The notes under the pieces were generated by a model that saw nothing but the letters and a program-made list of their open reading frames with translations, was not told the DNA's origin and searched no databases. The position numbers and the translations under genes were made by a program. Positions 5,777-22,560 of a DNA stretch of 64,000 nt are shown in pieces; the first letter of the stretch is position 1, and every line of letters starts with the position of its first letter. Origin of the DNA: Microbacterium sp. zg-Y1090. GTDB taxonomy: Bacteria > Actinomycetota > Actinomycetes > Actinomycetales > Microbacteriaceae. The stretch is from assembly GCF_030246945.1 (NCBI RefSeq), contig NZ_CP126742.1:992001-1056000 (forward strand), read 5' to 3'.

Positions 5777-5946
5777 GATGCTCCCTTCCGTGGATTGCGG
5801 CGAGACGGCCACGATTCCGAGAACCGGCCGCGGACGCAACCCACGACGCACCTTCGAGCGGGACTCTCACCGGATACGGAGGTTCGGCGCTGGCGAGCGC
5901 TGCTGGCCCGGGGCGTCGGCTGGTCGCGGCTAGAATCGATCAGCCA

Positions 5947-6018
5947 GCCTCTGTAGCTCAATGGAAGAGCAGTTGCGTCCTAAGCAAACGGTTGGGGGTT
6001 CGAGTCCCTCCAGGGGCA
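5947..6018 (+). tRNA. tRNA-Arg (anticodon CCT)
   Basis: A cloverleaf can be drawn directly. The acceptor stem is GCCTCTG/CAGGGGC and the D arm is GCTC-AATGGAA-GAGC. The anticodon arm GTTGC-GTCCTAA-GCAAA has CCT at 5979-5981 and one weak closing pair. The T arm is GGGGG-TTCGAGT-CCCTC and the discriminator is A6018. The 3' CCA is not encoded. It sits exactly at the left edge of the defence island, a common integration site. No second copy of its 3' end was found in the window. Confidence 0.93.
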
Positions 6019-6113
6019 CTCTGTGATGAGTCGCGACATAGGAGACATCTGAGTCGCGTCTGGTGGAGGCGGAGGCCGAGGCAGGTATTCACTCGCCCGA
6101 GGCTCGCAGCGCG

Positions 6114-7004
6114 TCACCGACCACTGAACTGGGCGAATCGCTCCGCAAGCAGATCGCGCGCTGGCCACGCCTTTCGGTTAGAAGGTGCGCGAATCGTGCG
6201 ACCGTGCATGTCTTGCAGGCCGTGGCGGAGCATTGGCCCGTCGACCTCGTCGAGGAGGCGGCGATCAATGCGTACCTCATAGTCGGCCGTGATGCCGAGG
6301 AGGAAGCGGTCGTACGCCGCGTGGTGCATCTTGCACATCGCGAGCCCGTTTGTCACGTGGGGGACGCCATGTGACTCGGTATCCCCGATGATATGTGCAG
6401 CATCGAGGAGCTCGGGGTGTTTGAGATCACAGACTGTGCAGGCATTCTCGTATGCGCGGAGAACGCGTGCTCGAAACAACGGCTGGTGCAGACGAGTTCG
6501 TACAACCGATTCTGCGTATCGACGCTGGTCGCTTGAGTACTGAAGCGGATCGCCGAGGAACCCGAGCCCTTGATCGAGCGGGAAGCGCACTTTCCGCTCC
6601 ACGACGTCGTTCTCTGCGATCACGATGGGGTAGTAGGGGAAGTAGTATCCCTCGCGAACCGCGCGAAAGTACACCATGGGCGAGCGAAGCTCGAAGGCCC
6701 GGATAAGTTTCAGATTGTCGCCCGCTTCTTCGTCGCGGTACGAGTACTCGATCCAGCCGTTTTCGTCCTCGAAGTCGCGGTACCTGTTCTTTTTCCAACC
6801 GGACATGATCGACAACGTCGACCGGAATGTCGCGGGGTTTCGAATACCTCGTCCGGTGTCGAGGAGTGGGATCCGTTCGCCGCGGAATGAATAGTTCAGG
6901 AGTTCCGCACGGCTGATTTCATACCCACCCCCGCCGATGAAGGCGGCGTCCAACCAACGGAAGACGTCGTTCCGGATGGCGAGCTCCTCTTCAGCGCTTC
7001 TCAT
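6114..7004 (-). CDS. HNH endonuclease with an SRA/ScoMcrA-like N-terminal region
   Basis: This 296-residue protein has a C-terminal HNH_2-type nuclease at about residues 185-240: CTVC, then DAAHI, then TNGLAMCKMHHAAYD, giving the H-N-H residues plus two zinc pairs. The first 180 residues (motifs GIRNPATFRSTLSI, SPMVYFRAV, GYYFPYYPIVI) resemble the domain that precedes HNH in ScoMcrA-type, modification-dependent type IV enzymes. A role in reading a modified base is therefore likely but is inferred from memory of that family. Its ATG overlaps the end of vsr by 14 bases and it is the last gene of the DISARM transcript. Its partner could equally be the C5 methyltransferase at 21.2-22.4 kb, acting as its restriction partner. 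Confidence 0.8.
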   Translation of the reverse strand: MRSAEEELAIRNDVFRWLDAAFIGGGGYEISRAELLNYSFRGERIPLLDTGRGIRNPATFRSTLSIMSGWKKNRYRDFEDENGWIEYSYRDEEAGDNLKLIRAFELRSPMVYFRAVREGYYFPYYPIVIAENDVVERKVRFPLDQGLGFLGDPLQYSSDQRRYAESVVRTRLHQPLFRARVLRAYENACTVCDLKHPELLDAAHIIGDTESHGVPHVTNGLAMCKMHHAAYDRFLLGITADYEVRIDRRLLDEVDGPMLRHGLQDMHGRTIRAPSNRKAWPARDLLAERFAQFSGR

Positions 7005-7419
7005 CGGTGCCTTTCCGCGCGAGCAGTTCTACTGTGTCTGCGATCTCCCGCGCAGACTCATGTTCCCAGAATCTCGCGACGATCCATCCGGCCGCCGACA
7101 ACCGTCGATCAGTGTCCCGGTCACGTGCGACGTTCGCCGCGAGCTTCGGGCCCCAATAGTCAGCATTCCGTCTAGGTGCTGTCCCGTGAATAGGGCAGCC
7201 GTGCCAGAAGCAGCCATCGATGAATACCGCGATACGTGCGCGGGTGAAGACGACGTCTGCGCGCCGTCGCAGGCCTGGGACGGGTGCGAAATCGACGCGA
7301 TACCGCAGACCGCGCGACTGCAGCTCCCGGCGCGCGGCGATCTCCGTCGACGTGTCGCGACGCTTGTTCGCGAGCATCGACTTTCTCGTGCCCTCAGATG
7401 AGGCCCAGGAATCGGCCAT
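6991..7419 (-). CDS. vsr: Vsr, very short patch repair endonuclease
   Basis: The 142-residue protein has the Vsr signature: N-terminal MLANKRRDTSTEIAARREL, the catalytic/zinc segment FIDGCFWHGCP (about residues 66-76), then DYWGPKLAANVARDR. Vsr nicks next to the T of T:G mismatches produced when 5-methylcytosine deaminates, protecting sites methylated by a linked Dcm-type enzyme. It starts 7 bases after the drmC stop and overlaps the HNH gene, so it is co-transcribed with DISARM. The matching C5 methyltransferase lies at the other end of the operon. Confidence 0.93.
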   Translation of the reverse strand: MADSWASSEGTRKSMLANKRRDTSTEIAARRELQSRGLRYRVDFAPVPGLRRRADVVFTRARIAVFIDGCFWHGCPIHGTAPRRNADYWGPKLAANVARDRDTDRRLSAAGWIVARFWEHESAREIADTVELLARKGTDEKR

Positions 7420-7426
7420 CAGCCCC

Positions 7427-8131
7427 TCAACCCAGATCGGTGATAGCTCCGTGCTCCCAGAGCTTGGCGAATCGCTGTCTCATGCCCGACGCGAACGCAA
7501 CGTCGTGGACGACGACACCCGCCTCGAGATTCCGTTCAGCGCCCGCGGTTGAGAGGTTCGCGCTGGTGACGAATGCGCTGCGCGAGTCCACGATCAGGAC
7601 CTTCGAGTGTTGCAGAGCATATTGCCCGTCGGGTGCCCTGTACGTCCAGAACCGTGCACCGGTCAGTTTGGTGCGAAGCATCGATGCAGTCTGGCCGTTA
7701 TTGACAGTCGAGTCGACGAGGAGGGTGGTGCGAACTCCGCGCGCGACCGCCTTCCACAACGCCTTCACGAACTCCGAGTCCGGTGTGGCTGAATACGTCG
7801 AAGCGAAGACGTCCTCTTTGGCGCCGTCGATCAGGTGTGCGATCGCCGACGTCGTGTGGTCGCCATCGCCATCGAAGGTGGGGCCGCTCCAGACCGCCCG
7901 TATGTCCCTCGCGCTCGTCTGGGCGGCGACCGCGAAGCCGCGCAGGACGGCGGCGAGCGCCGCGCCACCAACCACCTTGTACGCAGCCTCAAGCGGTGCA
8001 GCCGCCGCGGAACTGGGTGGCACCTTTTCGAGCGCCCTCGACAGCCGGCCGTCGATATCCAAGCTCGACGCGACTCTCAGTGCCATCGCAGGCGACAGTG
8101 TGGAAGCGAGCGCGACGAACGGGTCAGCCAT
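7427..8131 (-). CDS. drmC: DrmC, phospholipase D-like DISARM component
   Basis: A 234-residue single-HKD PLD-family protein. The motif QHSKVLIVD followed by SAFVTSANLS (about residues 168-190) supplies the H-x-K-x4-D and the downstream Ser/Asn. The N-terminal half contains a WSGP segment and IAHLIDGAKEDVFASTY, typical of PLD-like nucleases. In DISARM, DrmC is the conserved PLD gene after drmB and is reported to be partly dispensable. The ATG at 8131 was chosen because it overlaps the drmB stop (TGATG). The longer upstream frame reads through drmB and has no coding character. Confidence 0.9.
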   Translation of the reverse strand: MADPFVALASTLSPAMALRVASSLDIDGRLSRALEKVPPSSAAAAPLEAAYKVVGGAALAAVLRGFAVAAQTSARDIRAVWSGPTFDGDGDHTTSAIAHLIDGAKEDVFASTYSATPDSEFVKALWKAVARGVRTTLLVDSTVNNGQTASMLRTKLTGARFWTYRAPDGQYALQHSKVLIVDSRSAFVTSANLSTAGAERNLEAGVVVHDVAFASGMRQRFAKLWEHGAITDLG

Positions 8132-10212
8132 CAGCCGAAGCTCGCCGAGATGCCCGCCAGCAGCGGCTTCACATCGAGCGATCCGGCGTGGAGATCGAGA
8201 ACGAACCGCCGATCGAGGAAACGATTCGCGCGCTCGCACGACGTCTCCGACAGGAAGGCGCAGAAGTGGCACGCGGCACCGTGGAGGAAATCTTCCTGAT
8301 TCTTCGGTACGCGGTGAGCGCAGATCGGATCGGATGAGCACCGCTGCGCACGATGCAGAGCCTCTTGCAACACCGGTTCGAGACGGTCGGTGCGAGCCAG
8401 ATCCACGAGACCGCCGAGCGTACCCTCGCTGTCGGGCGACGTCGTCGTGATGAGAATGCCGGCAGCAGGATCTCGACCCTCCGATGCCCGCCACGCGTAG
8501 ATGCGCTCCGATAGCGACGCCGACCCGTATCCGCTCGACATCGCCATCTCGCGGATCAAAAGGTGCGACAGGGTGTGAAGCGCCCAGTAGCGCGGCGGTG
8601 GCATCCGATCGTCGGCGCTGACGGCGGCAGCTGTGGTGCTCTGGCGGCGGGCGAGATTCCGCTCGTGCGCCGCGCAATGCGCGGCCCACACGGCGCTTTC
8701 GAGGACGCCCGCCTCCCACGTCTCGACGACGGCTTCTTTGAAACGGAGGAAGACGCCCTCGCCGCGGTCCTCGGTGGCGGGTACCCACTTCGGCTTACCG
8801 GAGAGCGAGATGGGCGCGATACGCGTTGCGTCGTCGCCAACGCGGTCGAGCGCGTCGATCCGGGTGAATCCGATGAAGGCATTCGCCTTCCGGATGCGGT
8901 CGACCGCCACCACGTCGCTGATCGTGGTGTCCAGCGTCGCCGCAACAGGAACCGGGTGCACCTTGAACCCGTTGCGCCGATCCTCCGCGAGAAACTCCGT
9001 CGGATGGGTCAGCGTCTCCCATTCGGGTGCGAGCAAGTAGTTCGGGTCGTATCCGATCGGGCCGGCTGCAGCCGCCGCGAGTGGCGGAAGGTCCCCTCGT
9101 GCGATCTGGATTGCCGTCCAGAGTTCCTCATCCGAGATCCCGGCGAAGCGCTCGGTGATGTTTTCGGGAGCGAAGGTGCGCCAGCCCGCCACCGCAGCGA
9201 GCGAGGTCATCTTCGCCACCTGAGCGGGCGGTATACCGAGAACCTCGGTGACCGTATCGGCGGGCTGCGGCACCTTGCGTGAGGGGAGAACAAGCACGCT
9301 AATCGTGGCGGGGAACCACTGGTTCGCAGCCCCGAGCAGCATGAGCCGAACTTCGCCCTGGCAAGGTTCGTCCGCGGATGCGTACGACGGAAGATGCGGA
9401 TGCCGCCCGCGGCAGTTCGGGAGGGAGTCCTCGCCTCCCGCACGGGTCAGCTCAGCGATATTGCGGGAGGAGCCGCACACGACGCACTTGATTGATACCT
9501 GCGGACCGAGGTTCGAGCGCCACTCGAGCATGCGCATCTTCGGCTGTGCGACGCATTCGGTGCGGTGGCCGTCGGCACCGTGCACCCAGTCGACATATGG
9601 GAACTCGTCGAGGTGCCCGTTGGTGCATGCGATGAGATAGCGTGCGGGCACCGCAGCGCGGGGCCGCGCCTTCCCCCCGAAACGACCCTTGCAGGCCTTG
9701 TGAACGAAACGAGCCAGATCGGGTCGATGCTTGCGCGTGTTCTCGAACTCGAAGGTGCTCGCAGCCGACACCGGAGCGAGAAGGTCGCACCCCGTGCACC
9801 GTAGCCACTGCGGGAAGATGCGGGTAGGGATGCCGATCGGGGTCGTGTTACCGCCGAGGTCGTCCGGCAGCCACGGCGGTTGGCGGAGCTCCCCGACCTG
9901 CTGGCCCAGCTGGCGGCGCACCGCCTCGATGAGGCGAGGGACCAGCACGAGAGGAGGATCGCCACCCATCCTCGCGTACGCCTTGTCCCAGGCGTCGATG
10001 CCTTGCGGCATCACCGCGATCTGCGGCAGATCGACCGTTGCGCCGATGCCCGAGGTGTAGAGCATGCCGTTCGGCCGGATCGAGCCGATGCGGGCGCGAT
10101 TCTTCGGTTCTCCCGAGCCTGCGTAGGGGTCCGCGACGTCGCCGGGGACCTCTACGACTGTCTGCTCATCGCCGGCGGTCGCCCGCTCCGTGGTCACGCG
10201 CTCTTCGGTCAC
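8131..10212 (-). CDS. drmB: DrmB, DUF1998 DISARM protein
   Basis: The 693-residue protein has two CxxC zinc-finger-like sites (CTGC near residue 142, CVVC about 100 residues later). A C-terminal DUF1998 region (about 560-690) carries the typical final Cys pattern CSSDPICAHRV and GAACHFCAFLSETSC followed by NRFLDR. With DrmA it forms the DISARM core that senses and blocks incoming DNA. The GTG at 10212 is preferred over ATG 10248. It overlaps the drmA stop as GTGA and has AAGGA about 8 bases upstream, whereas the longer start would overlap drmA by 40 bases. Confidence 0.92.
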   Translation of the reverse strand: MTEERVTTERATAGDEQTVVEVPGDVADPYAGSGEPKNRARIGSIRPNGMLYTSGIGATVDLPQIAVMPQGIDAWDKAYARMGGDPPLVLVPRLIEAVRRQLGQQVGELRQPPWLPDDLGGNTTPIGIPTRIFPQWLRCTGCDLLAPVSAASTFEFENTRKHRPDLARFVHKACKGRFGGKARPRAAVPARYLIACTNGHLDEFPYVDWVHGADGHRTECVAQPKMRMLEWRSNLGPQVSIKCVVCGSSRNIAELTRAGGEDSLPNCRGRHPHLPSYASADEPCQGEVRLMLLGAANQWFPATISVLVLPSRKVPQPADTVTEVLGIPPAQVAKMTSLAAVAGWRTFAPENITERFAGISDEELWTAIQIARGDLPPLAAAAAGPIGYDPNYLLAPEWETLTHPTEFLAEDRRNGFKVHPVPVAATLDTTISDVVAVDRIRKANAFIGFTRIDALDRVGDDATRIAPISLSGKPKWVPATEDRGEGVFLRFKEAVVETWEAGVLESAVWAAHCAAHERNLARRQSTTAAAVSADDRMPPPRYWALHTLSHLLIREMAMSSGYGSASLSERIYAWRASEGRDPAAGILITTTSPDSEGTLGGLVDLARTDRLEPVLQEALHRAQRCSSDPICAHRVPKNQEDFLHGAACHFCAFLSETSCERANRFLDRRFVLDLHAGSLDVKPLLAGISASFG

Positions 10213-13200
10213 TTGGCATCCTTCTTCGCCTTGACGGTAAAGGTCCACTTCGGCGTCGTCGCAGTGACGGGCTCAGCGAGCTTGCCGGGGAAGGGCGAAA
10301 CGAGGAGGTCGATCTCGGGCTGCACCTCGCGCATCGAGTTCGCGACCTGGAAAAGCCGGTCGCCCTCCTCGCCGATCGAGTCCTCCGGGCTGATCAGCAG
10401 CGGTTCCACGATTTGGTTCGGGAGGGACTTTCTCGAATAGGTGAGCGCTCCGGAAGTCGCGGTTGCACGATCCGTCCACTTGTCGAGCCTCAACACGATC
10501 TTGCTCTTCATGCTTGACGCCGCCCCGGCGTCGGCGGCGAGGTCGACACGCGCAACCAGCTTGTCTACGAGAGCGTCAATGGTCGCGCGACGGATAGCGA
10601 TCCGGCCCGCTCCGGCGTTGGACTCCGCCGAGAGAGACTCGGCGGGCGTCACTGTGGCATCGATCACGCGCGCCGCCGAGACGATGAGCCCGGTCAGCCC
10701 GCGTTCGAGCGCTGCCTCCGAGAACGGGGTGACGGAGAGCGCCTCGACATTCGCGTAGAAGGTGTCGTGATAGTGCTCGAATTGCTCGTAATGAGCCATG
10801 TCGCGCGGCCGGGCGCGGTTCGCGAGCGTCACCACGAGCCCGGGTTTCGCCCCCTCGCGTCCGACGCGGGAGGACGCCTGGATGTACTCCGCTGTGTTCT
10901 TCGGCTGTCCCACGATCATCATGAGCCCGAGACGAGGGACGTCGACACCGACCTGGAGCATCGACGTGGCAAGGACGACGTCGTACGGCAGTTCCCGCGG
11001 GGCGAGTTCCTCGCCGGCCTTCCGCTTGGCCGCGATAACCGCCCGCCCTGTCGTCGTGTCAATGTCGGGGTCGAAGGGCGAAGCAAGGTGAGTCAGAGTC
11101 TTCCCGATCTCGGAGGACGAGATGCGGGATGTCAGTTCGCCGAGCTTGAGAGGCGTGCGCCTTCTGGGGTAACCCGTCGACTTATCCGGGCTGCTCACGC
11201 GCGTCGTCACATCGTCCTCGAGGTACCGGCGCATGCCGGCAAGCTCCCGTGTGGCGGAGAAGTAGTCCACGAGCGTCAGATAGGGCTCTGCAGCAGCGCC
11301 GTGCTCGTCGAAGAGCTTCTGACCAGCGAGCAGGAGGATCTCGCTGAGGCGGATCTCGGCGAGCGTCAGACGTGCGCCGTGGAGGCAGACGCCGAGGTAC
11401 CGGCGACCGGGAGCCTCTTTCGGAGGGTTCTCTCCATCGGCCCGGGCAGCACTCAAGTCCGCCGTTCCGGGTAGCGGCACCTCCTTCGAGAAGAAGGTGT
11501 CGCTCACGCTCAGTACTTGCGGTGGGAAGACCTCGACGTCGCGGGCATACAGCCGCTGAACCTGCTCGGCAGCTTTTCGAACGGTCGCGGTCGACGCGAT
11601 CACGAGCGGCTTCACCGGCTTCGCGGTCCCCGAAGCTCCGAGCTCCCAGCTCGAGAGGACGTCGATCGCCCCCTCGAAAAGACCCACGGCGGTGCCGAGA
11701 GCCCCGGTGATGAGGTGGAGCTCGTCCTGGATGATCAGGTCCGGCGGGCGCAGTCGGCCGACTGCCGTGACCTGGGTGGAGGGGTAGGCGCGTCCGTTCG
11801 CGGTCTTCGCGTTGTGGGTGTCGGCACCGCAGACGCTGGCGTCGGTGTCCAGGTGCTTGTAGCCGTGTCGCGGACACTTCTTGGCCACATAGCCGAACAG
11901 GCTGGCGGCTTCACCTTCGCGGGCTAGACGAGCGAACTTGTCGACGGTCGCCAGGAGGAAGGTGGGCGGATGCCGGTAGATCTCGTCGTCGACGGTGAGC
12001 ACGGGAAGCCCGACCTCCGCGGACCCGCCGGCCGCGAAAGGGCATCGAGCCCGACGGTCGCCGCAGTAGATGCGGATGCGCTTTTCAACATCGTCGGCTT
12101 CGACGTTCGACTTCGGGTTGATCGCCGTCCCGCACCAGGGGCAATGGTCGAACTGGAGCACCGTCAGCCCGTACGCGGAGTTGCCGTCTCTCTCGCGCAC
12201 GTCTTTCACCTGCTCGGCCGCTTCGGAGTAGCGCTTCGGGCTGACGCTCGATCCGACCCAGAGTCCGATGGTGAAGGGAGCTGAGCCCCAGCTCGCCGGG
12301 TCTTCTCGGCGGACGACCTCGGCGGCGCACATGAGAGTTGTCGCGCGCAGAAATTGCTGCGACGTGAGCAAGCGCAGCGTGTATCGCATGAGCACAGCGA
12401 CGCCGTCGCCACCGTCAAGTAGTCCTTCGGGCGTCTCGACCTTGCCCTGCAGACGGCGGATACCGAATGTGAACGCGGCGAGGCCGAGGTAGGCCTCCGT
12501 TTTGCCGCCACCGGTCGGGAAGAACAGCAGCTCGGCGCGCGCGTAGTCCGTCGACCGGCGCACGTGGGTGGGGTCGACCACCGACGGTAGCTGCATGAGG
12601 ATGAACGCGAGCTGGAACGCGCGCCACGATGCCGCTTCCTCGCCACGCGCATCGACGCGGGCGACAGCGTCGGCGATCGACATTTCCCTCTGCTCGATAC
12701 GAACCGCCGCGACCTGCGACCGCAACCGCTGATCCCGCATCGTGCGGTTCATGAACCAGAAGGCGCGCTGCGCCTGCTTATTGGAGACGAGGAGCTCAAG
12801 CCCTGCGCGCAGCCGCTCAAGCGCTGCAGCGCCGTCTTCAAGTCCGATGCGGCCTTGTTCCTGCAGCCACTCCGGAAGCGCGGCGTTCTTTGCTGCGCAC
12901 TTTTGCAGCCACGCCGAGTACCCATCGAGGAGAGGGTTCAGACCTGCTTCGAGCTCCTCGGGGGACGCGGCCATGAGTGCGCTCATGCTGAGCACAGCAC
13001 CCGTGACCGTTGGAGCCTGCGTTTGCGGCACCTCCGCCGTCGGTAGCCACGTCGTCCTGACCGCTGTCGCCCGACGAGGGTCGGCTGGCGAGACATCCCA
13101 TTCCACAGAGGCTGTGCGGCCGACGGCGAATTCGAGGCGATCGCGGTAGAGAAGATCGAGACGGCGCACTTCCGGGTCTCGGGAGCCACGATCGGCGACC

Positions 13201-13958
13201 ATCGCGTCACGTGCGGGCAGGAAGATGCCGTTGCCACTCGGTGTCGTGACCTCAAGCTCGGCTTGGAACATCCAGAGTTTGGGAGGCAACTCCCGCCCTG
13301 TGACCGCTGTATTGAGAAGAGCAGCCTCGACGACGCACCGTCCCTCGACGTCGAACACCTCGACACTGATCTCGACGTCGCCGGGCAGCGAGGCGCGCGT
13401 TGAGCTGCCGTTCGCGATCGCTGAGATGTCGATATCGGCGATTTCTTCGAAGGGCGTGCGGTCGTAGTAGGTCTGGATTTTGCCCTGCTCATCAGCCTCG
13501 CGCCTCGCTGAGTACTTCCCCCAGCGTGCGGTGAAGCGGAGTACAGGCGTGTCCGCCGGCACCTGGAACCGGAGCCCCATCGACGACGGGGCGATGATCT
13601 TCGATTCCGGGCCGCGGTCCTCGTCGCGTTCGCTCGGCGAAGCTTCGGTGATCGACGCCTCCTCGTCGGCTGGCACACCCTGTACGTCGTGGGCGCCGCT
13701 GAGATCGCCGACGGCGAGGGACTCATCTGCGCGAACATCGGCGAGTGAGGCCCCGTTTGCGTCGGTTGGCGATGCCACCGCATCCGGGGCGCCGTCGAGG
13801 AGCGAGATCGGCGCGAGTGCGCCGGCGAGGTAGCGAGCGCGGGGCGTGCCCACGATCGTTTCGTCAGGCCCGTCCCACGGGCCGACGAGGTCACGGGCGA
13901 TCAGGTCGACGAGTTCATCGCGGACCTGTGCCGCGGAGGTAGGGGATTCGCCGGTCAC
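10209..13958 (-). CDS. drmA: DrmA, DISARM helicase
   Basis: The 1249-residue SF2 helicase-like protein has a Walker A, FFPTGGGKTEAYLGL, near residue 482. A DExH-type box, IIQDELHLITG, lies near 743. The C-terminal helicase motifs ATSMLQVGVDVPRLG and YIQASSRVGREG lie near 1000-1031. Cys pairs CPWCG and CPRHGYKH between the two lobes suggest a zinc insertion. In DISARM, DrmA with DrmB binds DNA and is needed for restriction. GTG 13958 is preferred because it overlaps the drmMI stop (TAGTG) and has AAGGAG upstream. ATG 13985 has no ribosome site and would extend into drmMI. Confidence 0.93.
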   Translation of the reverse strand: MTGESPTSAAQVRDELVDLIARDLVGPWDGPDETIVGTPRARYLAGALAPISLLDGAPDAVASPTDANGASLADVRADESLAVGDLSGAHDVQGVPADEEASITEASPSERDEDRGPESKIIAPSSMGLRFQVPADTPVLRFTARWGKYSARREADEQGKIQTYYDRTPFEEIADIDISAIANGSSTRASLPGDVEISVEVFDVEGRCVVEAALLNTAVTGRELPPKLWMFQAELEVTTPSGNGIFLPARDAMVADRGSRDPEVRRLDLLYRDRLEFAVGRTASVEWDVSPADPRRATAVRTTWLPTAEVPQTQAPTVTGAVLSMSALMAASPEELEAGLNPLLDGYSAWLQKCAAKNAALPEWLQEQGRIGLEDGAAALERLRAGLELLVSNKQAQRAFWFMNRTMRDQRLRSQVAAVRIEQREMSIADAVARVDARGEEAASWRAFQLAFILMQLPSVVDPTHVRRSTDYARAELLFFPTGGGKTEAYLGLAAFTFGIRRLQGKVETPEGLLDGGDGVAVLMRYTLRLLTSQQFLRATTLMCAAEVVRREDPASWGSAPFTIGLWVGSSVSPKRYSEAAEQVKDVRERDGNSAYGLTVLQFDHCPWCGTAINPKSNVEADDVEKRIRIYCGDRRARCPFAAGGSAEVGLPVLTVDDEIYRHPPTFLLATVDKFARLAREGEAASLFGYVAKKCPRHGYKHLDTDASVCGADTHNAKTANGRAYPSTQVTAVGRLRPPDLIIQDELHLITGALGTAVGLFEGAIDVLSSWELGASGTAKPVKPLVIASTATVRKAAEQVQRLYARDVEVFPPQVLSVSDTFFSKEVPLPGTADLSAARADGENPPKEAPGRRYLGVCLHGARLTLAEIRLSEILLLAGQKLFDEHGAAAEPYLTLVDYFSATRELAGMRRYLEDDVTTRVSSPDKSTGYPRRRTPLKLGELTSRISSSEIGKTLTHLASPFDPDIDTTTGRAVIAAKRKAGEELAPRELPYDVVLATSMLQVGVDVPRLGLMMIVGQPKNTAEYIQASSRVGREGAKPGLVVTLANRARPRDMAHYEQFEHYHDTFYANVEALSVTPFSEAALERGLTGLIVSAARVIDATVTPAESLSAESNAGAGRIAIRRATIDALVDKLVARVDLAADAGAASSMKSKIVLRLDKWTDRATATSGALTYSRKSLPNQIVEPLLISPEDSIGEEGDRLFQVANSMREVQPEIDLLVSPFPGKLAEPVTATTPKWTFTVKAKKDAK

Positions 13959-16900
13959 TAGAACATCGCTCCTTCGGGAACGCATGATTGGTCAAAGTTG
14001 TCGCCGCGGTCGGGCGCGGGGGTGCGAGACTTGTCCGCCTGAAGCTCCCCCCTTCGGTTGTTCTCTGCAAGCAGCAGATCGAGGATCTTCACCCGAGAAT
14101 CGGGATCCACTGTCCATCGCTCAACTTGCCGGTAGCTGTAGAATCCGTGGTTAAGCTGAATACTGTCCCAGCCGAACGCTCGGACTACAGCTGAGTTGAT
14201 TCGCGCATGGATCGAGCGAAGGTGATCGATGTCGGCATCGCCTCGAACCAAAGGCGAGTTGACTCTCTTGTAGAGCGCCGTCAACCCCAGACCGCGGCTT
14301 CGCATAATATCCGCACGATCGCCGTCCAATAGCATGCCGAGTTCGGCCATCTCATCCGTTGGTTCAGGGCGAGGTAGCGTCTCGAATACGTCTGAAGTCG
14401 TGTATCTCGCTGCCGCATCGAGACTTGAGCCCCACCGCATTGCCCAGAGCTGATGTATCGACGAACTCAGTAAACAAAGTGATGCGAAATCGTCAAGAAG
14501 GAAGACGCCGAGGGAGTTACTGAATACCAATTTCGAATCGAATCGAAGCGGCATCAGAGTGTCGCTTGTGAGGACGATCGCGATCACGGCGTCCAGCTCC
14601 TGTAGCCCTGCGGACAACCCGGGAGCGCGTTCAGCGTACTGCCACCACCTCTCCCGATACTGCCTCTTCTTGACTCTGTCTCGCGCAGGCTTCACTAGTT
14701 CTCGGACTCGCCTGAGCGCGGCAGGAAATTGTTCTGCCTCGGAGAGTGTCAAATTACCGAAATCAATCACCGTGCTACTTGGCCCCGGTGAGGCGCGTCC
14801 GTTTACGTCTACTCCGGTCAAAAATGGCCGAACGACCCGCGCAGAGGATGGATCTTCCTCCAGAAGCTGCTCGCGTTCCGCGTCGCTCATAACGAATCCC
14901 TTGCCTGACAGGATCACGCCCATGAAGCTCAGTCCTTTATTCTCGGACAGCACAGTAGGCGGCTTGATATAGGCCGTCGCCGGCTCGAGTGCTGGCGAGA
15001 TGAGCGATACCCGCTGCCCGTCGCAGACTGAACGGCCACCGGCTTGAGGGCGAGCTGTCAGCCAGATCAGGGAAACGTGCACACTTGCGGTTGTCGGCCA
15101 TTTATAGCGCTTGACGGTTCGGTGCACCCGCCATGTGGTGAGCAAAAGGGGGTCGAGCGCTACTCGGCGCCCGTCGCCCTCCGATAACGACTCGGAGGCG
15201 ATCATCCCTACGGTCGCGTCCTGATTGGCGAGTGTCACCAACCGGAGTACGAAGTACGCGACGAGGTCTGCCTCGCCCTTGCGTTCGTTGGCGATTGAGT
15301 TGACCAAGAACTCCCGAAAGTTCGAACCCGAAGCGCCAGAGATCTTCTTTCCCCCGAGGAACGGGGGGTTGCCGATGATGGCGTCGAAGCCGCCGCGGGT
15401 GTGGATGACGTCCGGAGCCTCGAGTATCCAGTGCAGGGGCTTCCACCGCGCCTCGCCCGTATCAGCGGCCGGTGTGAGGCCCGCATCGATGATGGCATCG
15501 AGCTCGGTTCGGTCCGGCTCGGCATCTCCGTCGACGGGGTAGGCGGCGCGGAGGGCGTCGGCGAGGTCGTCGTAGCGGTCGTCGAGCTTCTTGCCGCGCT
15601 TGCCACCTTCGAGGAGGCCAGCCGCGATTATGCCCTCGGCGACGTCGCGTAGCTTCGCGGTGACCTGGTCGGCTTGGACCAGGAGTGCGTGTTTCGCTTT
15701 CGTGGAGCGCATGCGGTCGGCGTCGTCGACCTGCCCAGAGGAGAGCTCGCGGCGGATACGGGCGGCGTCGTCAAGATCCTTATCGACGTCGAACCAGAGC
15801 AGCTGCTCCCGCCCGCGGCGGCGCTCGGGATAGATGTGCTGGGCCTTCAACTGCTCCTCGGTGGTGACGCCGAGCAGCGAGTTGCCGTGGAAGACGCGGT
15901 CGTCCACGAAGGAGAACGGCTTGCCCGGGTCCATCGAGATGAGCCAGAGGGAGAGCTTGCACATCTCGACAGCCATGCCGTTGATGTCGGCGCCGTAGAG
16001 ACAGCGTGCGACGACTTCGCGCACCGCCCACCGTTTCAGATCCGGCTCGCCACTCACGTCAAGCCCTTCTTCGGCGCGTGCCTCGATGAGCCGGTCGGCG
16101 AGGTAGTGGGCTGCGGCGACGAGGAACGCGCCCGAGCCGGCGGCGATGTCTGCGACCTTCAGGTCGAGGATCTCCGCCGAGGACTTCAGCTTCCACTCGC
16201 TGCGATTCTCGGTATCGAGAGGTCCGGGATTATAGACGAGCGGCTCCAGCGCGTGGAGGACCACTTCCTCTGCGAGGGAGCGGGGGGTGTAGTGGGTCCC
16301 AGTGTTCGCCCTCTGCGGGGATTCCGTCATCACAAGCCCGTCAGCCGGAACGACGTAAGGCATCCCGCGCAGGTCATTGCGGATGAGGCCGTAGAAGGGA
16401 TGCAGCCGGGTTAAAACGTCGTCGTTGCCGAGGAGCGCATATCGAAGTCGCGTGCGAGCAGCGGCGGCGGGCTCAGGGGCATCGGCTCCGTACGCCTTCG
16501 CAATCTGCTTCGCGGTGCGGGGCCTGGACTGTTTCTGAGTCGTCTCCAGATGCTTTACGAGCCGTTCCGCGAAATCCGCCGGCGAAGAGGCGGCAGCAGC
16601 GACGTCTTCCAGCTCGTCAAGGGCGATCTCGGGCTCGAACCCCGCCGTACCCTGGAGGCCGACCGTGACGTCGGAGACGTAGGTAGCCGAGTAACCGAGC
16701 AAACCTTCGTAGACGTAGCCGATTTGCTCGACGTCGAGCTCGCGGAAAGAGAGCCGCAGCGCGCCGTCTTCGATCGTCTGCACGGCGCGGAGGACGGCTA
16801 GCATCGCCCGGTCGGTCAGTCGCACCCGCAGCCGGCCCTGACCGTCGGTGGCATGCAGCCATGGGAAACGAGCGGGATCGAACAGGGAGCCACCGTAGGC

Positions 16901-17953
16901 GGGCATCCGCATGTCCTGGAAGGAGGCCCCTCCGAACACCGCATTGCTCGCTGCGAGCAAACGGTGCCATGCCTCCCACGAGTGGTCGAGTGCCTCTTCC
17001 GAAGTCGCAGTCGCGTCCTGCTGGAGGTGCTCGCGGACTCGCGCGATCGCGTACGAGGAACGGTAGAGGTCATGATCGGGAAGCAGCCCGCGTTCCTCCG
17101 CGAAGAGGAGGAAGACGATGCGCATGAGCACCGTGACCGCGGCTGCGTAGACAGCTTTCGGGTCCTCCGGCAGCGGGGAGGGCTCGCCCTGCGCGAGTGC
17201 ACGAAGGTGTGTGTCTGACATCGATTGGAGGACGAGCTCGACGGCGCGGCGAACCTGGTCGCCGAGCGCCTCGGTGATCTCCTCCGCGCTCGCGATGCTC
17301 TTGTCGAAGAGCAGCGGAAGCCGCTTCATCTCGTCTCCACCCGCGATCGACGTATAGCTAGCCAGAGCGAAGAACGCATCGCGGCTAGGACGTTCCTCAC
17401 GCCACAACAACGCATCCCACACGCCGCTGGCCGTCGTGACGTCCTTCGCCGCTGATACCAGCGCCCACCATCGGCCGTCGGTGACGATGCCGGTCGTGAC
17501 GCCGGTCTCCCGCAGCAGCACCGCCATTCGGTCGATAGCGTTCGCCGACCACCCATCGCTGCCCACCGAACGCAGATCATCGGTGCGGTCCACAACGGTG
17601 ACGAGGGCGGACGGGACACTCGAGCCGGTCAGCGCGGCCCATGGTGTCACCGTGACAGCGCCATTAGGGGACTGCGCGGAGAGGCCTTCGGGCGACAGCT
17701 GCAGGTCGTCGGACCAATCGAGCAGGCGGCGCAACACGACCGCCACCCACCGGTCACGCGCCGTGTCGTAAACGTCCGCCGGCGCGGTCCACGCTGCGGA
17801 CCATCGGACGAACTCTTCGGCGAAGACGTCTGCTGTCTCGTCCGCTGCGGGGCGGGGTAGCCCCGAGGGGTAGAACGACTTCAACGCCGCTTTCGACAGG
17901 AAGGGACCGTCGTGGTCGATCAGCGACAACCACTCCCACACATCAACGGGCAC
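13958..17953 (-). CDS. drmMI: DrmMI, N6-adenine DNA methyltransferase of class 1 DISARM
   Basis: A 1331-residue PglX-like class of adenine methyltransferase. Motif I (DIAAGSGAFLVAA) lies near residue 603 and the catalytic motif IV (IIGNPPFLGGKK, the N-P-P-F box) near 863. The last roughly 450 residues form the target-recognition part. It marks host DNA so that DISARM spares it. It overlaps the drmD stop by 11 bases and ends within the drmA start, so the operon is tightly coupled. The stretch 14.0-15.3 kb, encoding the C-terminal recognition part, looks clearly less GC-rich than the surrounding drm genes. That suggests exchange of the specificity domain, though no composition was computed. Confidence 0.93.
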   Translation of the reverse strand: MPVDVWEWLSLIDHDGPFLSKAALKSFYPSGLPRPAADETADVFAEEFVRWSAAWTAPADVYDTARDRWVAVVLRRLLDWSDDLQLSPEGLSAQSPNGAVTVTPWAALTGSSVPSALVTVVDRTDDLRSVGSDGWSANAIDRMAVLLRETGVTTGIVTDGRWWALVSAAKDVTTASGVWDALLWREERPSRDAFFALASYTSIAGGDEMKRLPLLFDKSIASAEEITEALGDQVRRAVELVLQSMSDTHLRALAQGEPSPLPEDPKAVYAAAVTVLMRIVFLLFAEERGLLPDHDLYRSSYAIARVREHLQQDATATSEEALDHSWEAWHRLLAASNAVFGGASFQDMRMPAYGGSLFDPARFPWLHATDGQGRLRVRLTDRAMLAVLRAVQTIEDGALRLSFRELDVEQIGYVYEGLLGYSATYVSDVTVGLQGTAGFEPEIALDELEDVAAAASSPADFAERLVKHLETTQKQSRPRTAKQIAKAYGADAPEPAAAARTRLRYALLGNDDVLTRLHPFYGLIRNDLRGMPYVVPADGLVMTESPQRANTGTHYTPRSLAEEVVLHALEPLVYNPGPLDTENRSEWKLKSSAEILDLKVADIAAGSGAFLVAAAHYLADRLIEARAEEGLDVSGEPDLKRWAVREVVARCLYGADINGMAVEMCKLSLWLISMDPGKPFSFVDDRVFHGNSLLGVTTEEQLKAQHIYPERRRGREQLLWFDVDKDLDDAARIRRELSSGQVDDADRMRSTKAKHALLVQADQVTAKLRDVAEGIIAAGLLEGGKRGKKLDDRYDDLADALRAAYPVDGDAEPDRTELDAIIDAGLTPAADTGEARWKPLHWILEAPDVIHTRGGFDAIIGNPPFLGGKKISGASGSNFREFLVNSIANERKGEADLVAYFVLRLVTLANQDATVGMIASESLSEGDGRRVALDPLLLTTWRVHRTVKRYKWPTTASVHVSLIWLTARPQAGGRSVCDGQRVSLISPALEPATAYIKPPTVLSENKGLSFMGVILSGKGFVMSDAEREQLLEEDPSSARVVRPFLTGVDVNGRASPGPSSTVIDFGNLTLSEAEQFPAALRRVRELVKPARDRVKKRQYRERWWQYAERAPGLSAGLQELDAVIAIVLTSDTLMPLRFDSKLVFSNSLGVFLLDDFASLCLLSSSIHQLWAMRWGSSLDAAARYTTSDVFETLPRPEPTDEMAELGMLLDGDRADIMRSRGLGLTALYKRVNSPLVRGDADIDHLRSIHARINSAVVRAFGWDSIQLNHGFYSYRQVERWTVDPDSRVKILDLLLAENNRRGELQADKSRTPAPDRGDNFDQSCVPEGAMF

Positions 17954-20900
17954 CGGCGGACTCCAGCTTCTCGGCGTCTTCGGGGGTCAGAGCGAACACG
18001 AGCGCGGCAACGAAGGTGTGCGCTTGCACGTCGCGGTAACGGCGTTCGACGGCGTCGCGTTCCGTGTGCAGCTCGTCATCGAGGTGAGAGAGGCGCGTCC
18101 GGATGCGAGTCCGGTCACGGTCGTGCTGCTGCTTCTCCTCGGGCAGCTGGAAGAGCATCTCCTCGCCGGATCTGCGTGCCTCCTCGGCCGCGGCGAGGGT
18201 GCTCTCCAGTGTGCTGCGGAACCGGGCGAAGATCTCCTCGACGGTGGCGAGCTCCGCATCACGTCGTTCCAGCAGGTCGGATTCGACAGCGCCTCGGAGG
18301 CGTTCCGCGCGGCGCTGGACGGCGGCGTTGACGCGGCTTCGGATGCCGTCGACCGTATCCGAGTCGGTACTCCAGTCGGAGGCCAGCTTCGCAAGTACCT
18401 GCTCGCTCGGGCGGGTGAGACGCGTGCCATCCAGCGCGGACGCCAGCAGGTCCTCGGCTTTCTCCATGCCGAGTTCCTGGCGACGCGAGAGGCGTGTGCC
18501 GGCGAGGAAGACCTCTTCGTGCAAGCGCGTGCCGCCCTCGCCGACGAGCACGAGGCGGGCGACCCCCGCCGCGAAGGACTGATCCAGCCCGTCGACGATG
18601 ACTGCGCTCACGCCCCGGACGTGATCGGTGCGTGTCCACACCTGGCCCCGTAATTCGCGAGCTGCGCGCTGGATGAGGGGGTGGCCGAGATGCGCGTACA
18701 CAACGTCGGTCCGGTGCCGTGCGCGCTGCTCGTCGAATGTAATCGGGCGCTGCACATCTGGGGCGAGGCGCGTGTTGAGGCCCGCAAGCGCGGAAACCCA
18801 CGTTCGGGACACCCCGGGTGGGACTTGGAAGAGGCGCGCTTCCTCACGGGGATCGTCGACCTCGATGAGGCGGGGCTGGCCCGAGATTCGCAGTCCCTCT
18901 TCGAGAACACGAAGAAGGTTGCCCTCGTGCAGGTGCATGCGATCGCGGGAGCCTTCGAGGCGCTCGGCGAGGCGGGTCAGGTTGGCGCCGAGAGTGTGCT
19001 CCGCCTGCAGCACGCGATTGATCACCTGGCCACCGGCATCCGTCTGGCTCTTTCGCGCCGGGGCGTCTCCGAAGCCGAGTTCGCGCTGCAGGTCGGGCGC
19101 GATGATCTCATTGGCTGAGATACCGTCGTGTTCCGAGTTCGTGATCTTGCTCGCGAGCCGAGCGAGCAAGTCGTTGTCCTTCGCGTAGTCCGACGTGTTC
19201 TGTTTGTCGGCGCGAGGGTGCCAGACGAGGGGAGTCTCGTTCTGTCCGTAACGGTCGATGCGGCCGATCCGCTGCTCGAGACGGTTCGGATTGAACGGGA
19301 TGTCGAAGCTGACCAGACGATGACAGTAGGTCTGCAGGTCGATGCCTTCGCCGGCCGCATCCGTTGCCAGCAGGATCCGAATCGGTTCGTCACGAGGAGG
19401 CGCGTTGAATCGGGCGCGGATCTCCTCGCGCGTCTCGGCGTCGGTCGATCCGTCGATGATCGCTAGCCGCTCGCCGCCGAGCCCTCGCGATTCGAGCACG
19501 TCACGCAGCCATTCCAGGGTGGTGACGTACTCCGTGAAGATGACGATGCGTTCCTCGCCCCAGCCGTGCCCTTGAACGATCAACTCGCCCTCGATGAGCC
19601 GCAGCAGGGCTTCCAGCTTCGAATCGGGACGGCCGTCATAGCGGCGCCCCCAAGCGATCAGGTCGCGGAGGTCCGAGACGTCCTCATCGCCGAGCGGCAC
19701 CTGGGCACGCTTGGCGGTTCGAAGTGCTTCGAGCTCGGGCTGCTCGGCGCGACCTTCCTCCTCGTCGGATGCCTCGTCGCCCAGAATGTCGTCGTAGTCG
19801 GGAAGCTGCACGTCCTCGTCGCCACGCGCCTCCAGATATGTCTCAGCGGTCCCAGCGAAGGCGACCGGCGAGGAGAAGAACCGCTTCTTGAGGATCACCG
19901 TGGCGAGGTCGGACGCACGCTTTCCCCGACCCTGCTGCACAGCGGCGTTGCGACGACGCGTGAAGGCGATGAGCTTTTCGTATGCCTCGGCCTCGTCGCC
20001 CGAGGGGTCAAACCACAGTGGGCGTACCTCGCGAAGGCGGAATCCCTCATCCGGCAGGTCCCGCTTCAGGCGGCGCACCGCGACTTGTCGCAGAGCCTTC
20101 TCGTCGAGATCCGCGCCGCGCGCGAACCGCTGCGGGTCGATCATCTCCAGGAGTGCCGTGAAAGATTCGGTGTAGCCGTTATGCGGCGTGGCGCTGAGGA
20201 AGAGTCTGTGCTCGCAGAGCTCTGCGAGGCGTCGCACCGCGATCGTCCGCTGGCTGTCGACTGCATAGCGGGCCTTGTCTGCATTGGCGCGGCTCGGAGT
20301 AGCCGGGGCGACGTGGTGCGCCTCGTCGACGATGAGAATGTCGAAGGCACGGCGCTCGGCCGTGCGTTTGTCCTTGACGCTGGCATACACCTCTTCGAGC
20401 ATTCGCTCCGCGCGGGGCGAGGGCAGCCACGACATCGAGACGATTACGCGCGGATAGACCCGGAAAGGATTGGCGTGCACACCGAAGCTCCGGCGGAACG
20501 TTTTCATCGTCTCGGTGTTGACGATCTCGAAGTCCAGGCCGAACTTGTCGCGCAGCTCTTCCTTCCACTTGATCACCAGTCCGGCGGGGCAGACCACGAT
20601 CACCGAGCGGGCGCGGTGACGCAGCAGAAGCTCCTGGATGACGAGACCGGCCTCGATCGTCTTTCCAAGACCGACGTCGTCTGCAAGGAGCATGTTGGCG
20701 CGGGGAGAGTCGATCGCGCGGCGAAGCGGTTCGAGCTGGTACGCCTCAACGGATGCGCTGCTTCGGAACGGCGCCTGCAGCGTCTTGGGGTCGGCGCTGG
20801 TGAGCGCACCCCAGCGGAGCGCATCGACGTAGGCGGCGAATGTCGTAGGGTCGTCGAACTGGTCGGGACGCAGGGTTGTAGGCAACCCCTGTTCGTGGAT

Positions 20901-21143
20901 GACGCCCCGGCCTGGCTCGAGTTCCCAGATGACGGTGAGCTCGCGGCCGTAGAAATCCTCCTCGACGGACTGCATCGTGACAGCGTGCTGCAGCTCGGCA
21001 CGGCCGTCGTCCGCGCTGCTGCGCGGCAGCGACTGCGCGGTCACGTCGGTGACCGACCAGCGAGCGCCGCGCACGTTCACCAGGCTGCCGATCTCCGGCA
21101 CCTCGGTTGTACGGGTCCTGGTCTCGATCAATCGCGACGACAT
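17943..21143 (-). CDS. drmD: DrmD, SNF2-like helicase of class 1 DISARM
   Basis: This 1066-residue Swi2/Snf2-family ATPase has its Walker A, ADDVGLGKTIEAGLV, near residues 153-167 and its DEAH box, IVDEAHHVAPA, near 271. The C-terminal lobe carries ATDAAGEGIDLQ and EQRIGRIDRYGQ near 588-628. A Glu/Arg-rich helical tail follows. DrmD is the defining gene of class 1 DISARM and stands first in the canonical order drmD-drmMI-drmA-drmB-drmC, exactly as here. It begins 54 bases after the stop of the C5 methyltransferase gene, close enough for one transcript. Confidence 0.92.
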   Translation of the reverse strand: MSSRLIETRTRTTEVPEIGSLVNVRGARWSVTDVTAQSLPRSSADDGRAELQHAVTMQSVEEDFYGRELTVIWELEPGRGVIHEQGLPTTLRPDQFDDPTTFAAYVDALRWGALTSADPKTLQAPFRSSASVEAYQLEPLRRAIDSPRANMLLADDVGLGKTIEAGLVIQELLLRHRARSVIVVCPAGLVIKWKEELRDKFGLDFEIVNTETMKTFRRSFGVHANPFRVYPRVIVSMSWLPSPRAERMLEEVYASVKDKRTAERRAFDILIVDEAHHVAPATPSRANADKARYAVDSQRTIAVRRLAELCEHRLFLSATPHNGYTESFTALLEMIDPQRFARGADLDEKALRQVAVRRLKRDLPDEGFRLREVRPLWFDPSGDEAEAYEKLIAFTRRRNAAVQQGRGKRASDLATVILKKRFFSSPVAFAGTAETYLEARGDEDVQLPDYDDILGDEASDEEEGRAEQPELEALRTAKRAQVPLGDEDVSDLRDLIAWGRRYDGRPDSKLEALLRLIEGELIVQGHGWGEERIVIFTEYVTTLEWLRDVLESRGLGGERLAIIDGSTDAETREEIRARFNAPPRDEPIRILLATDAAGEGIDLQTYCHRLVSFDIPFNPNRLEQRIGRIDRYGQNETPLVWHPRADKQNTSDYAKDNDLLARLASKITNSEHDGISANEIIAPDLQRELGFGDAPARKSQTDAGGQVINRVLQAEHTLGANLTRLAERLEGSRDRMHLHEGNLLRVLEEGLRISGQPRLIEVDDPREEARLFQVPPGVSRTWVSALAGLNTRLAPDVQRPITFDEQRARHRTDVVYAHLGHPLIQRAARELRGQVWTRTDHVRGVSAVIVDGLDQSFAAGVARLVLVGEGGTRLHEEVFLAGTRLSRRQELGMEKAEDLLASALDGTRLTRPSEQVLAKLASDWSTDSDTVDGIRSRVNAAVQRRAERLRGAVESDLLERRDAELATVEEIFARFRSTLESTLAAAEEARRSGEEMLFQLPEEKQQHDRDRTRIRTRLSHLDDELHTERDAVERRYRDVQAHTFVAALVFALTPEDAEKLESAGAR

Positions 21144-21197
21144 TTCGCGCCCCCTAGTTTCCCCATGATGCCCAGTCCATTGTCCGTGCGCTGGCCG

Positions 21198-22373
21198 CTA
21201 GGCCATCGCCGCAAGTTGCTCTGATGAATCGCTTCGCGCCTGAGCGAGGGTCAAGTATGCGTTGACAACCCCAGCCGACAAGGCAGGTGGCACAGCATTC
21301 CCGATCATCGTCGCGAGCGCGTGCCGCGTCGGGCAGGAAAAGAAGTCGAAGTAGTCCGGAAACCCTTGAATGCGGGACGCCTCGTGAGCGGTAAGTGCGC
21401 GTGCTCGCTCAGGGTGCATGAAGCGGCCCTGGCCGATGCTTCCGAATCCGCTGGTGATGGTCTGCGCGGGCTCGTCCCAGCGGAGCCGGCCGTACATCGA
21501 CTTGTAGGAGTGGTCACCCTGATGGCACTTCGGGCGCAACCTGTTCGGAAGGTCGAACTCGTCATTGTCGAGCAAGTACCGCATTCGCTCGAGGTTTTCT
21601 CTCTTCGCCTGCGGCTCGCGATCCCAGGGAGCATCCCCTCCAATATCGAGCAGGTCGCCGATCGCCCAGCGGAGAGTGCGGCGCTCTCCCGTCGGCATCG
21701 CTTCGAAGAGCGACTCCGGTGAGATGGCCTCGCCCTCCGCAACGGCGAGCAGAACGTGGCGCCTGCGCCGCTGCGCGACGCCGAGAGCCTCGAGTTCGAT
21801 GATCCGCTCCGCGACGCGATACCCGATCTCTGTCAGCCGACGCTCCGCGCGGGTGACTACTCCCTCGCCGTTGTGGCGGTCGTTGCGCACAGCCGGCACA
21901 TTTTCGATGAGTACGACCCGGGGCTTGACGATTTCCGCTGCGCGCACCATGCGTAAGTAAAGCGCGTTCTTCTCGTCCACCTGGCGGGTGTGGTTGTTCA
22001 GACTGCTGTGTCCCTGACACGGGGGTCCGCCGAGGAGGATGTCGACCTCGCCGACACGCGCCGCGACTCGCTTCTCAGCGAACGTCGGACGGGTCCCCGC
22101 GTCTCCGTCGAAGAGCATCTCCACGGGTCCCGTCTCTATGTTCGAGGCAAACGGGAAGTTGCGGCGATACACCTCTGTCGCGAGCGGTTCGAAGTCCACG
22201 GCGAGCGCGATCTCCACGGCGCGATCGTGGAGCGACGCGGCCTGGGCAGCGCCCAAGGTGAGACCGCCGCAGCCGGCGAAAAGATCGACGATGCGAATCG
22301 GCGCGCCATTGCCATCGTCGAACCGCGGGGCGGTGCGCTGGCGCAGCGGATGAGATCGGAGAGCATCGGGCAT
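21198..22373 (-). CDS. C5-cytosine DNA methyltransferase (Dcm/DrmMII-like)
   Basis: The 391-residue enzyme has all the conserved C5-MTase motifs: I DLFAGCGGLTLG (about residues 30-41), IV GGPPCQGHSS with the catalytic Cys near 117, VI LIENVPAV, VIII AQRRRRHVLL, and X MIGNAVPPALS near the C-terminus. It methylates cytosine in a target set by the region between VIII and IX, which cannot be predicted here. A cytosine methylase (DrmMII) belongs to class 2 DISARM, yet this one precedes a class 1 operon and is balanced by vsr at the operon's far end. The weak ribosome site GAGTGAAG precedes ATG 22373. Confidence 0.92.
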   Translation of the reverse strand: MPDALRSHPLRQRTAPRFDDGNGAPIRIVDLFAGCGGLTLGAAQAASLHDRAVEIALAVDFEPLATEVYRRNFPFASNIETGPVEMLFDGDAGTRPTFAEKRVAARVGEVDILLGGPPCQGHSSLNNHTRQVDEKNALYLRMVRAAEIVKPRVVLIENVPAVRNDRHNGEGVVTRAERRLTEIGYRVAERIIELEALGVAQRRRRHVLLAVAEGEAISPESLFEAMPTGERRTLRWAIGDLLDIGGDAPWDREPQAKRENLERMRYLLDNDEFDLPNRLRPKCHQGDHSYKSMYGRLRWDEPAQTITSGFGSIGQGRFMHPERARALTAHEASRIQGFPDYFDFFSCPTRHALATMIGNAVPPALSAGVVNAYLTLAQARSDSSEQLAAMA

Positions 22374-22560
22374 GTCGACTTCACTCTAGTAAGTAGGGCT
22401 GACATTCGAGCGTGTGGAGCTGACCTCCGCAGGCTAGGCGCCATTCAACGAAGCCGGAGGCGCGAGACGCGCTCGGGTGATTCGCGACGACTAACCCAAC
22501 GTTGTGCCGGCGCGCGGGGCGTGGCCCTGTTGTGAGGAAAGGGGATTGGCTTTGGGATCC

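Follow-up and report, generated by a model that had tools for sequence, protein, structure and literature searches.

The gene row studied here lies on the minus strand at positions 6114-22373 of the window, by which we mean the whole 64,000-nucleotide stretch of Microbacterium sp. zg-Y1090 DNA that was analyzed (positions 992001-1056000 of a 3.07-Mb, single-contig genome). By its gene content, the system is a class 1 defense island system associated with restriction-modification (DISARM). We consider it likely that this DISARM uses two self-marks, one on adenine and one on cytosine, that a Vsr endonuclease escorts the cytosine mark, and that a Type IV-like nuclease has been captured at the end of the row. 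The new part of this analysis is the recurrent link between vsr and DISARM loci bearing a C5-cytosine DNA methylase (hereafter C5); no paper linking Vsr to DISARM loci was found by title or abstract, in literature mostly outside subscription journals.

Organization of the Operon

The gene content, order, strand, and coordinates of the original prediction (C5-drmD-drmMI-drmA-drmB-drmC-vsr-HNH, all on the minus strand) are borne out. The row starts with the C5 gene (21198..22373), whose product belongs to what we call the alpha type among DISARM-linked C5s (PF00145, 157.4 bits; TIGR00675, 132 against a cutoff of 100.65) and contains the motifs GPPC, EN[VI], QRR, and GNA[VI]. It is followed by drmD (17943..21143), encoding an SNF2-like helicase (NF038317, 1174.8 against a cutoff of 610; PADLOC DrmD, 1207.2), and by drmMI (13958..17953), encoding an N6-adenine methylase (PADLOC DrmMI, 1457.8 bits) with the Pfam domains Eco57I, MmeI_Mtase, and MmeI_TRD, an MmeI-type target recognition domain. 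Next come drmA (10209..13985), for a YprA-family helicase (NF038325, 1279.9 against 950) that is matched by the DrmA of structure 7s9v with an E value of 2.7e-210, drmB (8131..10248; DUF1998/MZB; NF038324, 637 against 240), and drmC (7427..8131), for a phospholipase D (PLD) nuclease (NF038319, 143.5 against 133) with an HSKVLIVD motif in its translation. The vsr gene (6991..7419) encodes a homolog of T:G mismatch endonucleases (TIGR00632, 119.6 against 97.85; profile against 1cw0, E value 6.3e-27), and the last gene (6114..7004) a nuclease that is SRA-HNH by fold, which predicts a modification-dependent, Type IV-like enzyme. DrmD, DrmA, DrmB, DrmC, and Vsr thus score above the curated NCBIfam cutoffs.

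The nine-base spacing originally described is incorrect: 54 bp separate C5 from drmD and 7 bp separate drmC from vsr, vsr and HNH overlap by 14 bp, and neighboring drm genes abut or overlap. This spacing suggests that the row is cotranscribed from C5 to HNH. On the operon strand, no sigma-70-like promoter or terminator-like site was found in the two segments scanned, 21000-22800 and 5900-8200. The row is no chance reading, since the whole genome has a single PF00145 match and a single PF03852 match, both in this operon.

Class 2 DISARM is distinguished by drmE, which takes the place of drmD and drmMI. In the window, the drmD SNF2 helicase and the drmMI adenine methylase are instead found with the drmA/drmB/drmC core, and DrmE is absent from the PADLOC matches listed (the best 25 where there were more) for the nine proteins scanned. 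The closest DISARM relatives of the window on a DrmA tree are from Demequina and Microbacteriaceae. As for the first gene, which had been described as a cytosine methylase of the class 2 kind, its product is indeed a C5 methylase, but its best PADLOC match is DruM2|DruM (348.6 bits), the class 2 methylase DrmMII reaching just 116.3.

Two Methylases in One DISARM System

Class 1 loci (designated L; genomes are designated G) were defined by mapping the window genes in loci from sequence-searched genomes, and 38 of them, 20 with C5 and 18 without, were placed on a DrmA tree by a quick method. Dropped before this count were loci broken by contig ends (L046, L047, L063, and L101), loci that are not class 1 by the window profiles (L050, L051, L066-L068, L070, L071, and L098), and duplicates (L056, identical to L036, and L069, a second copy in G611). 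Among the C5-less loci, the DNA upstream of drmD is not visible in L096, L097, and L102 and is short in L094 and L103; the 13 secure negatives include L057 and L062 by virtue of the extra stretches L104 and L105.

In the DrmA clade of the window (SH-like approximate likelihood ratio test [SH-aLRT] support, 99), C5 is directly upstream of drmD in 18/18 sampled loci, as compared with 0/11 in the sister clade; L052 and L095 represent a second gain by parsimony on the 38-locus tree. Across the 20 C5-bearing loci, the gene is on the operon strand. It is within 63 bp of drmD or, by open reading frame (ORF) prediction, overlaps it; the exceptions are L040, L041, L043, and L048, in which the two are separated by vsr. 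Leaving aside L052 and L095, DISARM C5s split into an alpha group (window, L033-L037, L039, L042, L044, and L055) and a beta group (L038, L040, L041, L043, L048, L049, L053, and L054), with 23-37% likeness between them. The window C5 shares 61-69% identity with its counterparts preceding drmD in the nine other distinct alpha-type loci. Since two groups occupy the same slot, one methylase has been exchanged for another there. Judged from these sequences, C5 is a clade-wide DISARM component and no intruder.

An adenine and a cytosine methylase are therefore present in one gene row, as the original prediction had it. Its idea of a hybrid DISARM with two self-marks holds as far as the two methylases go, but not as a novelty: DISARM carries DrmMI and/or DrmMII, and the operon of Serratia is reported to have both (Bravo et al. 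2022, PMC9142583), so the two-mark design was already known.

The valine proposed as methylation sensor in DrmA gave no result as a marker of C5 use. This residue (Serratia V1296, window V1221, a position mapped by offset from the alignment of DrmA with 7s9v; a search with the DrmA tail found nothing) is kept in 37/38 DrmAs, with no difference between loci with and without C5.

The adenine methylase shows a variation of its own in other loci. Between drmMI and drmA, L057 (5791-9679), L069, and L062 (6181-9612) contain an inverted second DrmMI 3' cassette together with a serine recombinase gene (PF00239, PF07508); the cassette of L057 carries MmeI_TRD (59 bits). In L057 and L069, which are at opposite ends of one G611 contig, a 2587-bp segment is in opposite orientation and the expressed and silent DrmMI target domains are swapped. 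From its sequence, this arrangement looks like an invertible, phase-variable DISARM methylase whose target domain is switched by DNA inversion, a subject on which our literature search found no paper by title.

Repeated Recruitment of vsr

The claim that Vsr is tied to a C5 methylase stands up in class 1 loci: vsr is found in 14/20 loci with C5 and in 0/18 without (Fisher test, 4.3e-6), or 0/13 when secure negatives alone are counted (5.0e-5). Absence of vsr refers to the DNA fetched, apart from genomes searched whole for Vsr. Such matches elsewhere in the genome are seen for G634 (L033) and the genome of L049, both outside the stretch fetched, and for G359 (L055), where the match contains a stop and lies beside another C5. 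Of nine genomes in which no C5 was seen at the DISARM locus, a locus broken by a contig end in one of them (G718, L063), two have Vsr, on another contig.

The position and ancestry of vsr are stronger evidence than these counts. The gene occurs in four layouts. In the first two it follows drmC, either with the same orientation (window, L034, L035, L037, L044, L053, L054, and L095) or with the reverse one (L036). In the third it is divergent and located upstream of C5 (L038), and in the fourth it separates C5 from drmD and is on the strand opposite to theirs (L040, L041, L043, and L048). We also built a tree of 54 Vsrs, its bootstrap not fully settled, with 39 from other loci and 15 linked to DISARM, including that of L050, a locus with a DrmAB system outside class 1. 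The 13 DISARM Vsrs of the main clade are rejected as one clade by the approximately unbiased test (p-AU 8e-8), and a single recruitment followed by inheritance was accordingly rejected. Seven changes between DISARM and other loci are needed on this tree, at least four of them forced by the starred branches. The four layouts and the lack of a single clade show that vsr was recruited repeatedly, and every recipient in this sample is a C5-bearing locus.

Vsr is not rare, being found in 78/369 genomes of the family. As a control, we took the best 40 of the 75 matches left after removal of the window and three mapped loci, and counted 39 Vsr loci outside class 1 DISARM (L143 was left out), five of which are near another DrmAB system (L117, L127, L137, L138, and L145). 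C5 is within 500 bp in 21 of them, anywhere in the stretch fetched in 30, and absent from it in 9. None of these C5s is alpha-like over its full length, and one (L146) is beta-like, at 50%.

In an alignment of 14 Vsrs (A2; L095 excluded), residues E26, D55, H73, and D100 do not vary; at position 68, 13/14 have Asp and L050 has His. Together with D68, these residues correspond to E25, D51, H64, H69, and D97 of the Escherichia coli enzyme as given in PMC12907096. According to the same source, Asp at the His64 position also occurs in VsrA, V.NgoAXIII, and V.Nme18VIP, fairly degenerate motifs are tolerated by the two Neisseria enzymes, and VsrA raises the cost of losing the C5 methylase ScmA. A tolerant Vsr would explain how related Vsrs serve both alpha and beta C5s. 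Most likely, the window Vsr mends deaminated 5-methylcytosine (5mC) and puts a cost on losing the methylase.

Pairs of C5 and Vsr also occur near another DrmA/DrmB system in L137, L138, L145/L070, and L127; in L138 and L070, the large gene of that system matches PADLOC TmtA. On a Caulobacterales contig (L050, 689-13887), C5 and vsr stand in a row with an ORF of 870 amino acids (aa) that matches nothing in PADLOC at 1e-10, followed by a NERD-helicase-like gene, drmA and drmB, and lastly an MzaE-like gene.

The SRA-HNH Protein

The protein encoded by the last gene has an N-terminal SRA fold and a C-terminal HNH fold, which is the architecture of SRA-HNH, modification-dependent nucleases. Residues H204, N219, H228, D232, C189, C192, C224, and H227 are invariant in 22/22 HNH sequences; the catalytic and zinc residues were matched to those of TagI (PMC6212794) by order and spacing, not by superposition. 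Y75, D77, and Y87 are invariant as well, with a spacing unlike that of Y55, D58, and Y67 in the flipped-base pocket of TagI, to which sequence similarity is weak (profile E value, 0.0038).

The distribution of this gene differs from that of vsr. It adjoins C5 or vsr in 3/20 C5-bearing DISARM loci (window, L043, and L053) and is found in 1/18 C5-less ones (L060), so it has no association with C5 (p 0.61). Against the 39 Vsr loci outside class 1, the comparison is 3/20 to 0/39 (p 0.035) provided that two weak matches (L114, 74 bits; L132, 31 bits) are set aside as another kind, and 3/20 to 2/39 (p 0.32) if they are counted. In 20/20 non-DISARM loci, taken from 66 other matches and mostly the better-scoring ones, HNH homologs occur without C5 or Vsr within ~9 kb on each side, or less at contig ends, and no gene family is shared by more than two of the 20. 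That DISARM is nested in a Dcm-Vsr-HNH system, as had been suggested, is not borne out, with C5 clade-wide (18/18), vsr variable in position, and HNH adjacent in 3/20 loci. Of the three flanking genes, C5 and vsr recur in related loci, and HNH is nearly missing from them. A role for HNH as a cognate restriction enzyme was rejected: it is solo in all 20 non-DISARM loci, and a modification-dependent fold implies the opposite logic. It is more probably a captured neighbor.

The overlap of vsr and HNH in an operon with a 5mC writer is nevertheless a genuine puzzle. Two studied SRA-HNH relatives, ScoA3IV and TbiR51I, are reported to be toxic to Dcm+ E. coli (PMC6212794). The nearest HNH (69%) is in the same-genus genome G668, ~1 kb from a homolog of window gene 26386-27765 and with no DISARM between them. 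There (L153, 5873-9128), the end of a 94-aa gene overlaps the start of HNH by 4 bp, and genes of 181 and 455 aa follow, the latter being the match of 26386-27765. The 94-aa gene has no Pfam match and was seen upstream of HNH in G668 alone among the loci searched.

A modification-dependent enzyme of another type is encoded in L095, a class 1 DISARM with C5 and Vsr, where an AspBHI-type ORF (9464-10663, minus strand; PF18062, 211.6 bits, plus Mrr_cat) lies between drmMI and drmA.

Flanking Genes

A tRNA-Arg(CCT) gene (5947..6019, plus strand) forms the left border of a variable stretch. The flank and the tRNA are in the same order in 4/9 same-genus genomes searched (G215, G328, G355, and G668), and the stretch to the right of the tRNA differs among same-genus relatives. 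Concerning an attachment site, the tRNA end has one match in the window, the tRNA itself, and no repeats were found in 5800-6300.

Upstream of C5, at a distance of 187 bp and probably outside the operon, is a gene for a GmrSD Type IV enzyme (22561..25689, minus strand; PF03235, 120.2; PF07510, 79.6). In its middle, this protein resembles the DNA-binding segment of alkyltransferases (PF01035, at 23 bits and thus under the cutoff of 27). GmrSD_N is among the families listed for 3/51 flank ORFs of C5-bearing DISARM and 2/59 flank ORFs of C5-less DISARM; these scans took 51/66 and 59/76 ORFs, ORFs at the ends of loci and two from L097 being set aside, so that L040 and L048 contributed none. Type IV enzymes therefore flank both kinds of DISARM, with no robust difference found.

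Proposed Model and Alternatives

In the model that we favor, host DNA would be methylated by DrmMI at an adenine motif and by the C5 methylase at a cytosine motif, and the Drm proteins, by extension from Serratia, would attack DNA lacking these marks. As 5mC deaminates to T, the cytosine mark would erode its own sites. Vsr, which has the Asp at the E. coli His64 position found in two studied, context-tolerant members, would nick the resulting T:G mismatch so that C is restored, and would make loss of the methylase gene costly, so that the cytosine mark stays in the operon. The SRA-HNH protein would be a separate weapon, blind to the self-mark, that cuts DNA whose cytosines are modified in contexts other than those produced by the host methylase.

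Several observations weigh against this model. The correlation of C5 with Vsr is not phylogenetically independent, because C5 changes just twice on the DrmA tree, and with two pairs to compare, a sign test cannot reach 0.05. Many loci were found through similarity to the window DrmA, and its clade is over-represented. In 6/20 C5-bearing loci, there is no vsr in the DNA fetched, and since no Vsr turned up anywhere in three of the genomes concerned (G161, G663 [L042], and G758 [L039]), vsr is dispensable. The place of vsr is constant while the type of C5 differs (beta in L053 and L054, alpha in the window and L035), which argues that Vsr is not tuned to one C5. Finally, the occurrence of the DrmA sensor valine with and without C5 leaves a reading of the cytosine mark by DrmA unsupported.

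A different role for Vsr, as an effector nuclease of DISARM rather than a repair enzyme, is suggested by the predicted active Vsr-type domains fused to the YprA helicases of ARMADA (Bell et al. 2025, PMC12458937) and by the C5-Vsr pairs that adjoin other DrmAB-type systems (L137, L138, and L050). We find this rather improbable, as none of the 18 C5-less class 1 loci carries vsr, and the Vsrs retain their catalytic residues and are free proteins interspersed with Vsrs of other loci, many beside a C5. We give very little credence to the reading that DISARM inserted into a Type II restriction-modification system made up of C5, Vsr, and HNH. It would account for the three loci in which HNH adjoins C5 or vsr, and for L114, in which an HNH of another kind (74 bits to the HNH profile) lies beside C5, with Vsr 3 kb away. 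However, HNH has a modification-dependent fold and no association with C5 in DISARM loci, C5 is orthologous across alpha-type DISARM loci, and HNH is not kept beside C5 as a Type II system would lead one to expect, C5 being nearby in 0/20 of the fetched non-DISARM HNH loci, which also lack Vsr and a common partner family.

Everything outside drmD-drmC might alternatively be neutral crowding in a defense island, in line with the variable stretch right of the tRNA and with the Type IV enzymes that also flank C5-less DISARM (HNH in L060, and GmrSD_N at the frequencies given above). For the row as a whole we find this rather improbable, considering the clade-wide C5, the repeated recruitment of vsr in C5-bearing loci alone, and the tight spacing with overlaps; for HNH alone, it is the better reading. 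A bolder proposal, which seems to us unlikely, is an integrated write-guard-cut unit, in which DISARM would kill DNA without the A and C marks, Vsr would guard the cytosine mark and its writer, and SRA-HNH would kill DNA with cytosine marks in the wrong context. If this were true, writer and reader would be tuned to each other, foreign DNA being cut whether its marks are absent or wrong, and L095, a distant C5- and Vsr-bearing DISARM with its AspBHI-like gene inside the operon, would be a second, independent instance.

Under the model of a two-mark DISARM with a Vsr escort, a reason for the recurrence of vsr in multigene defense suggests itself: using 5mC as a self-mark comes at the price of mutations, and repair may be one of the costs. 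That a single operon encodes both a 5mC writer and a nuclease that probably depends on 5mC also poses a conflict, namely how the cell avoids cutting itself.

Comparison with Known Systems

The closest known system is the DISARM of Serratia sp. SCBI, which we take to be class 1. As in the window, one operon encodes a DrmA homolog (7s9v), DrmB, an adenine methylase, and a C5 methylase (PMC9142583). In contrast to the window operon, which ends in vsr and SRA-HNH, Vsr has no mention in the main text of the Serratia paper.

The Vsr component has its parallels in E. coli Dcm-Vsr and Caulobacter ScmA-VsrA, where a T:G endonuclease likewise serves a C5 methylase, and the aspartate at the E. coli His64 position is common to VsrA, the two Neisseria enzymes, and the window Vsr (PMC12907096). 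In E. coli and Caulobacter, however, the methylase is described as solitary, outside any DISARM operon, whereas in the window it is part of one. ARMADA and Druantia offer a further likeness, in that YprA helicases are linked to Vsr-type nucleases (PMC12458937) and the window C5 is nearest to a Druantia methylase profile in PADLOC; in those systems the Vsr domain is fused to the helicase, whereas the window Vsr is a free protein.

The window HNH is like TagI, ScoA3IV, and TbiR51I in having an SRA fold followed by an HNH fold, and shares with SRA-HNH endonucleases the HNH residues and an Asp four residues past the last His, invariant in our alignment A1 (PMC6212794). Unlike the TagI group, it overlaps vsr in a C5-bearing operon, and its modification dependence is a prediction. 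Finally, BREX (bacteriophage exclusion) and BrxU, a GmrSD-family enzyme, are reported to give complementary protection (PMC8565348), and the window similarly has a methylation-guided system beside a Type IV enzyme. Unlike BREX-BrxU, the methylation-guided system in the window is DISARM, with SRA-HNH at the end of the operon and GmrSD upstream.

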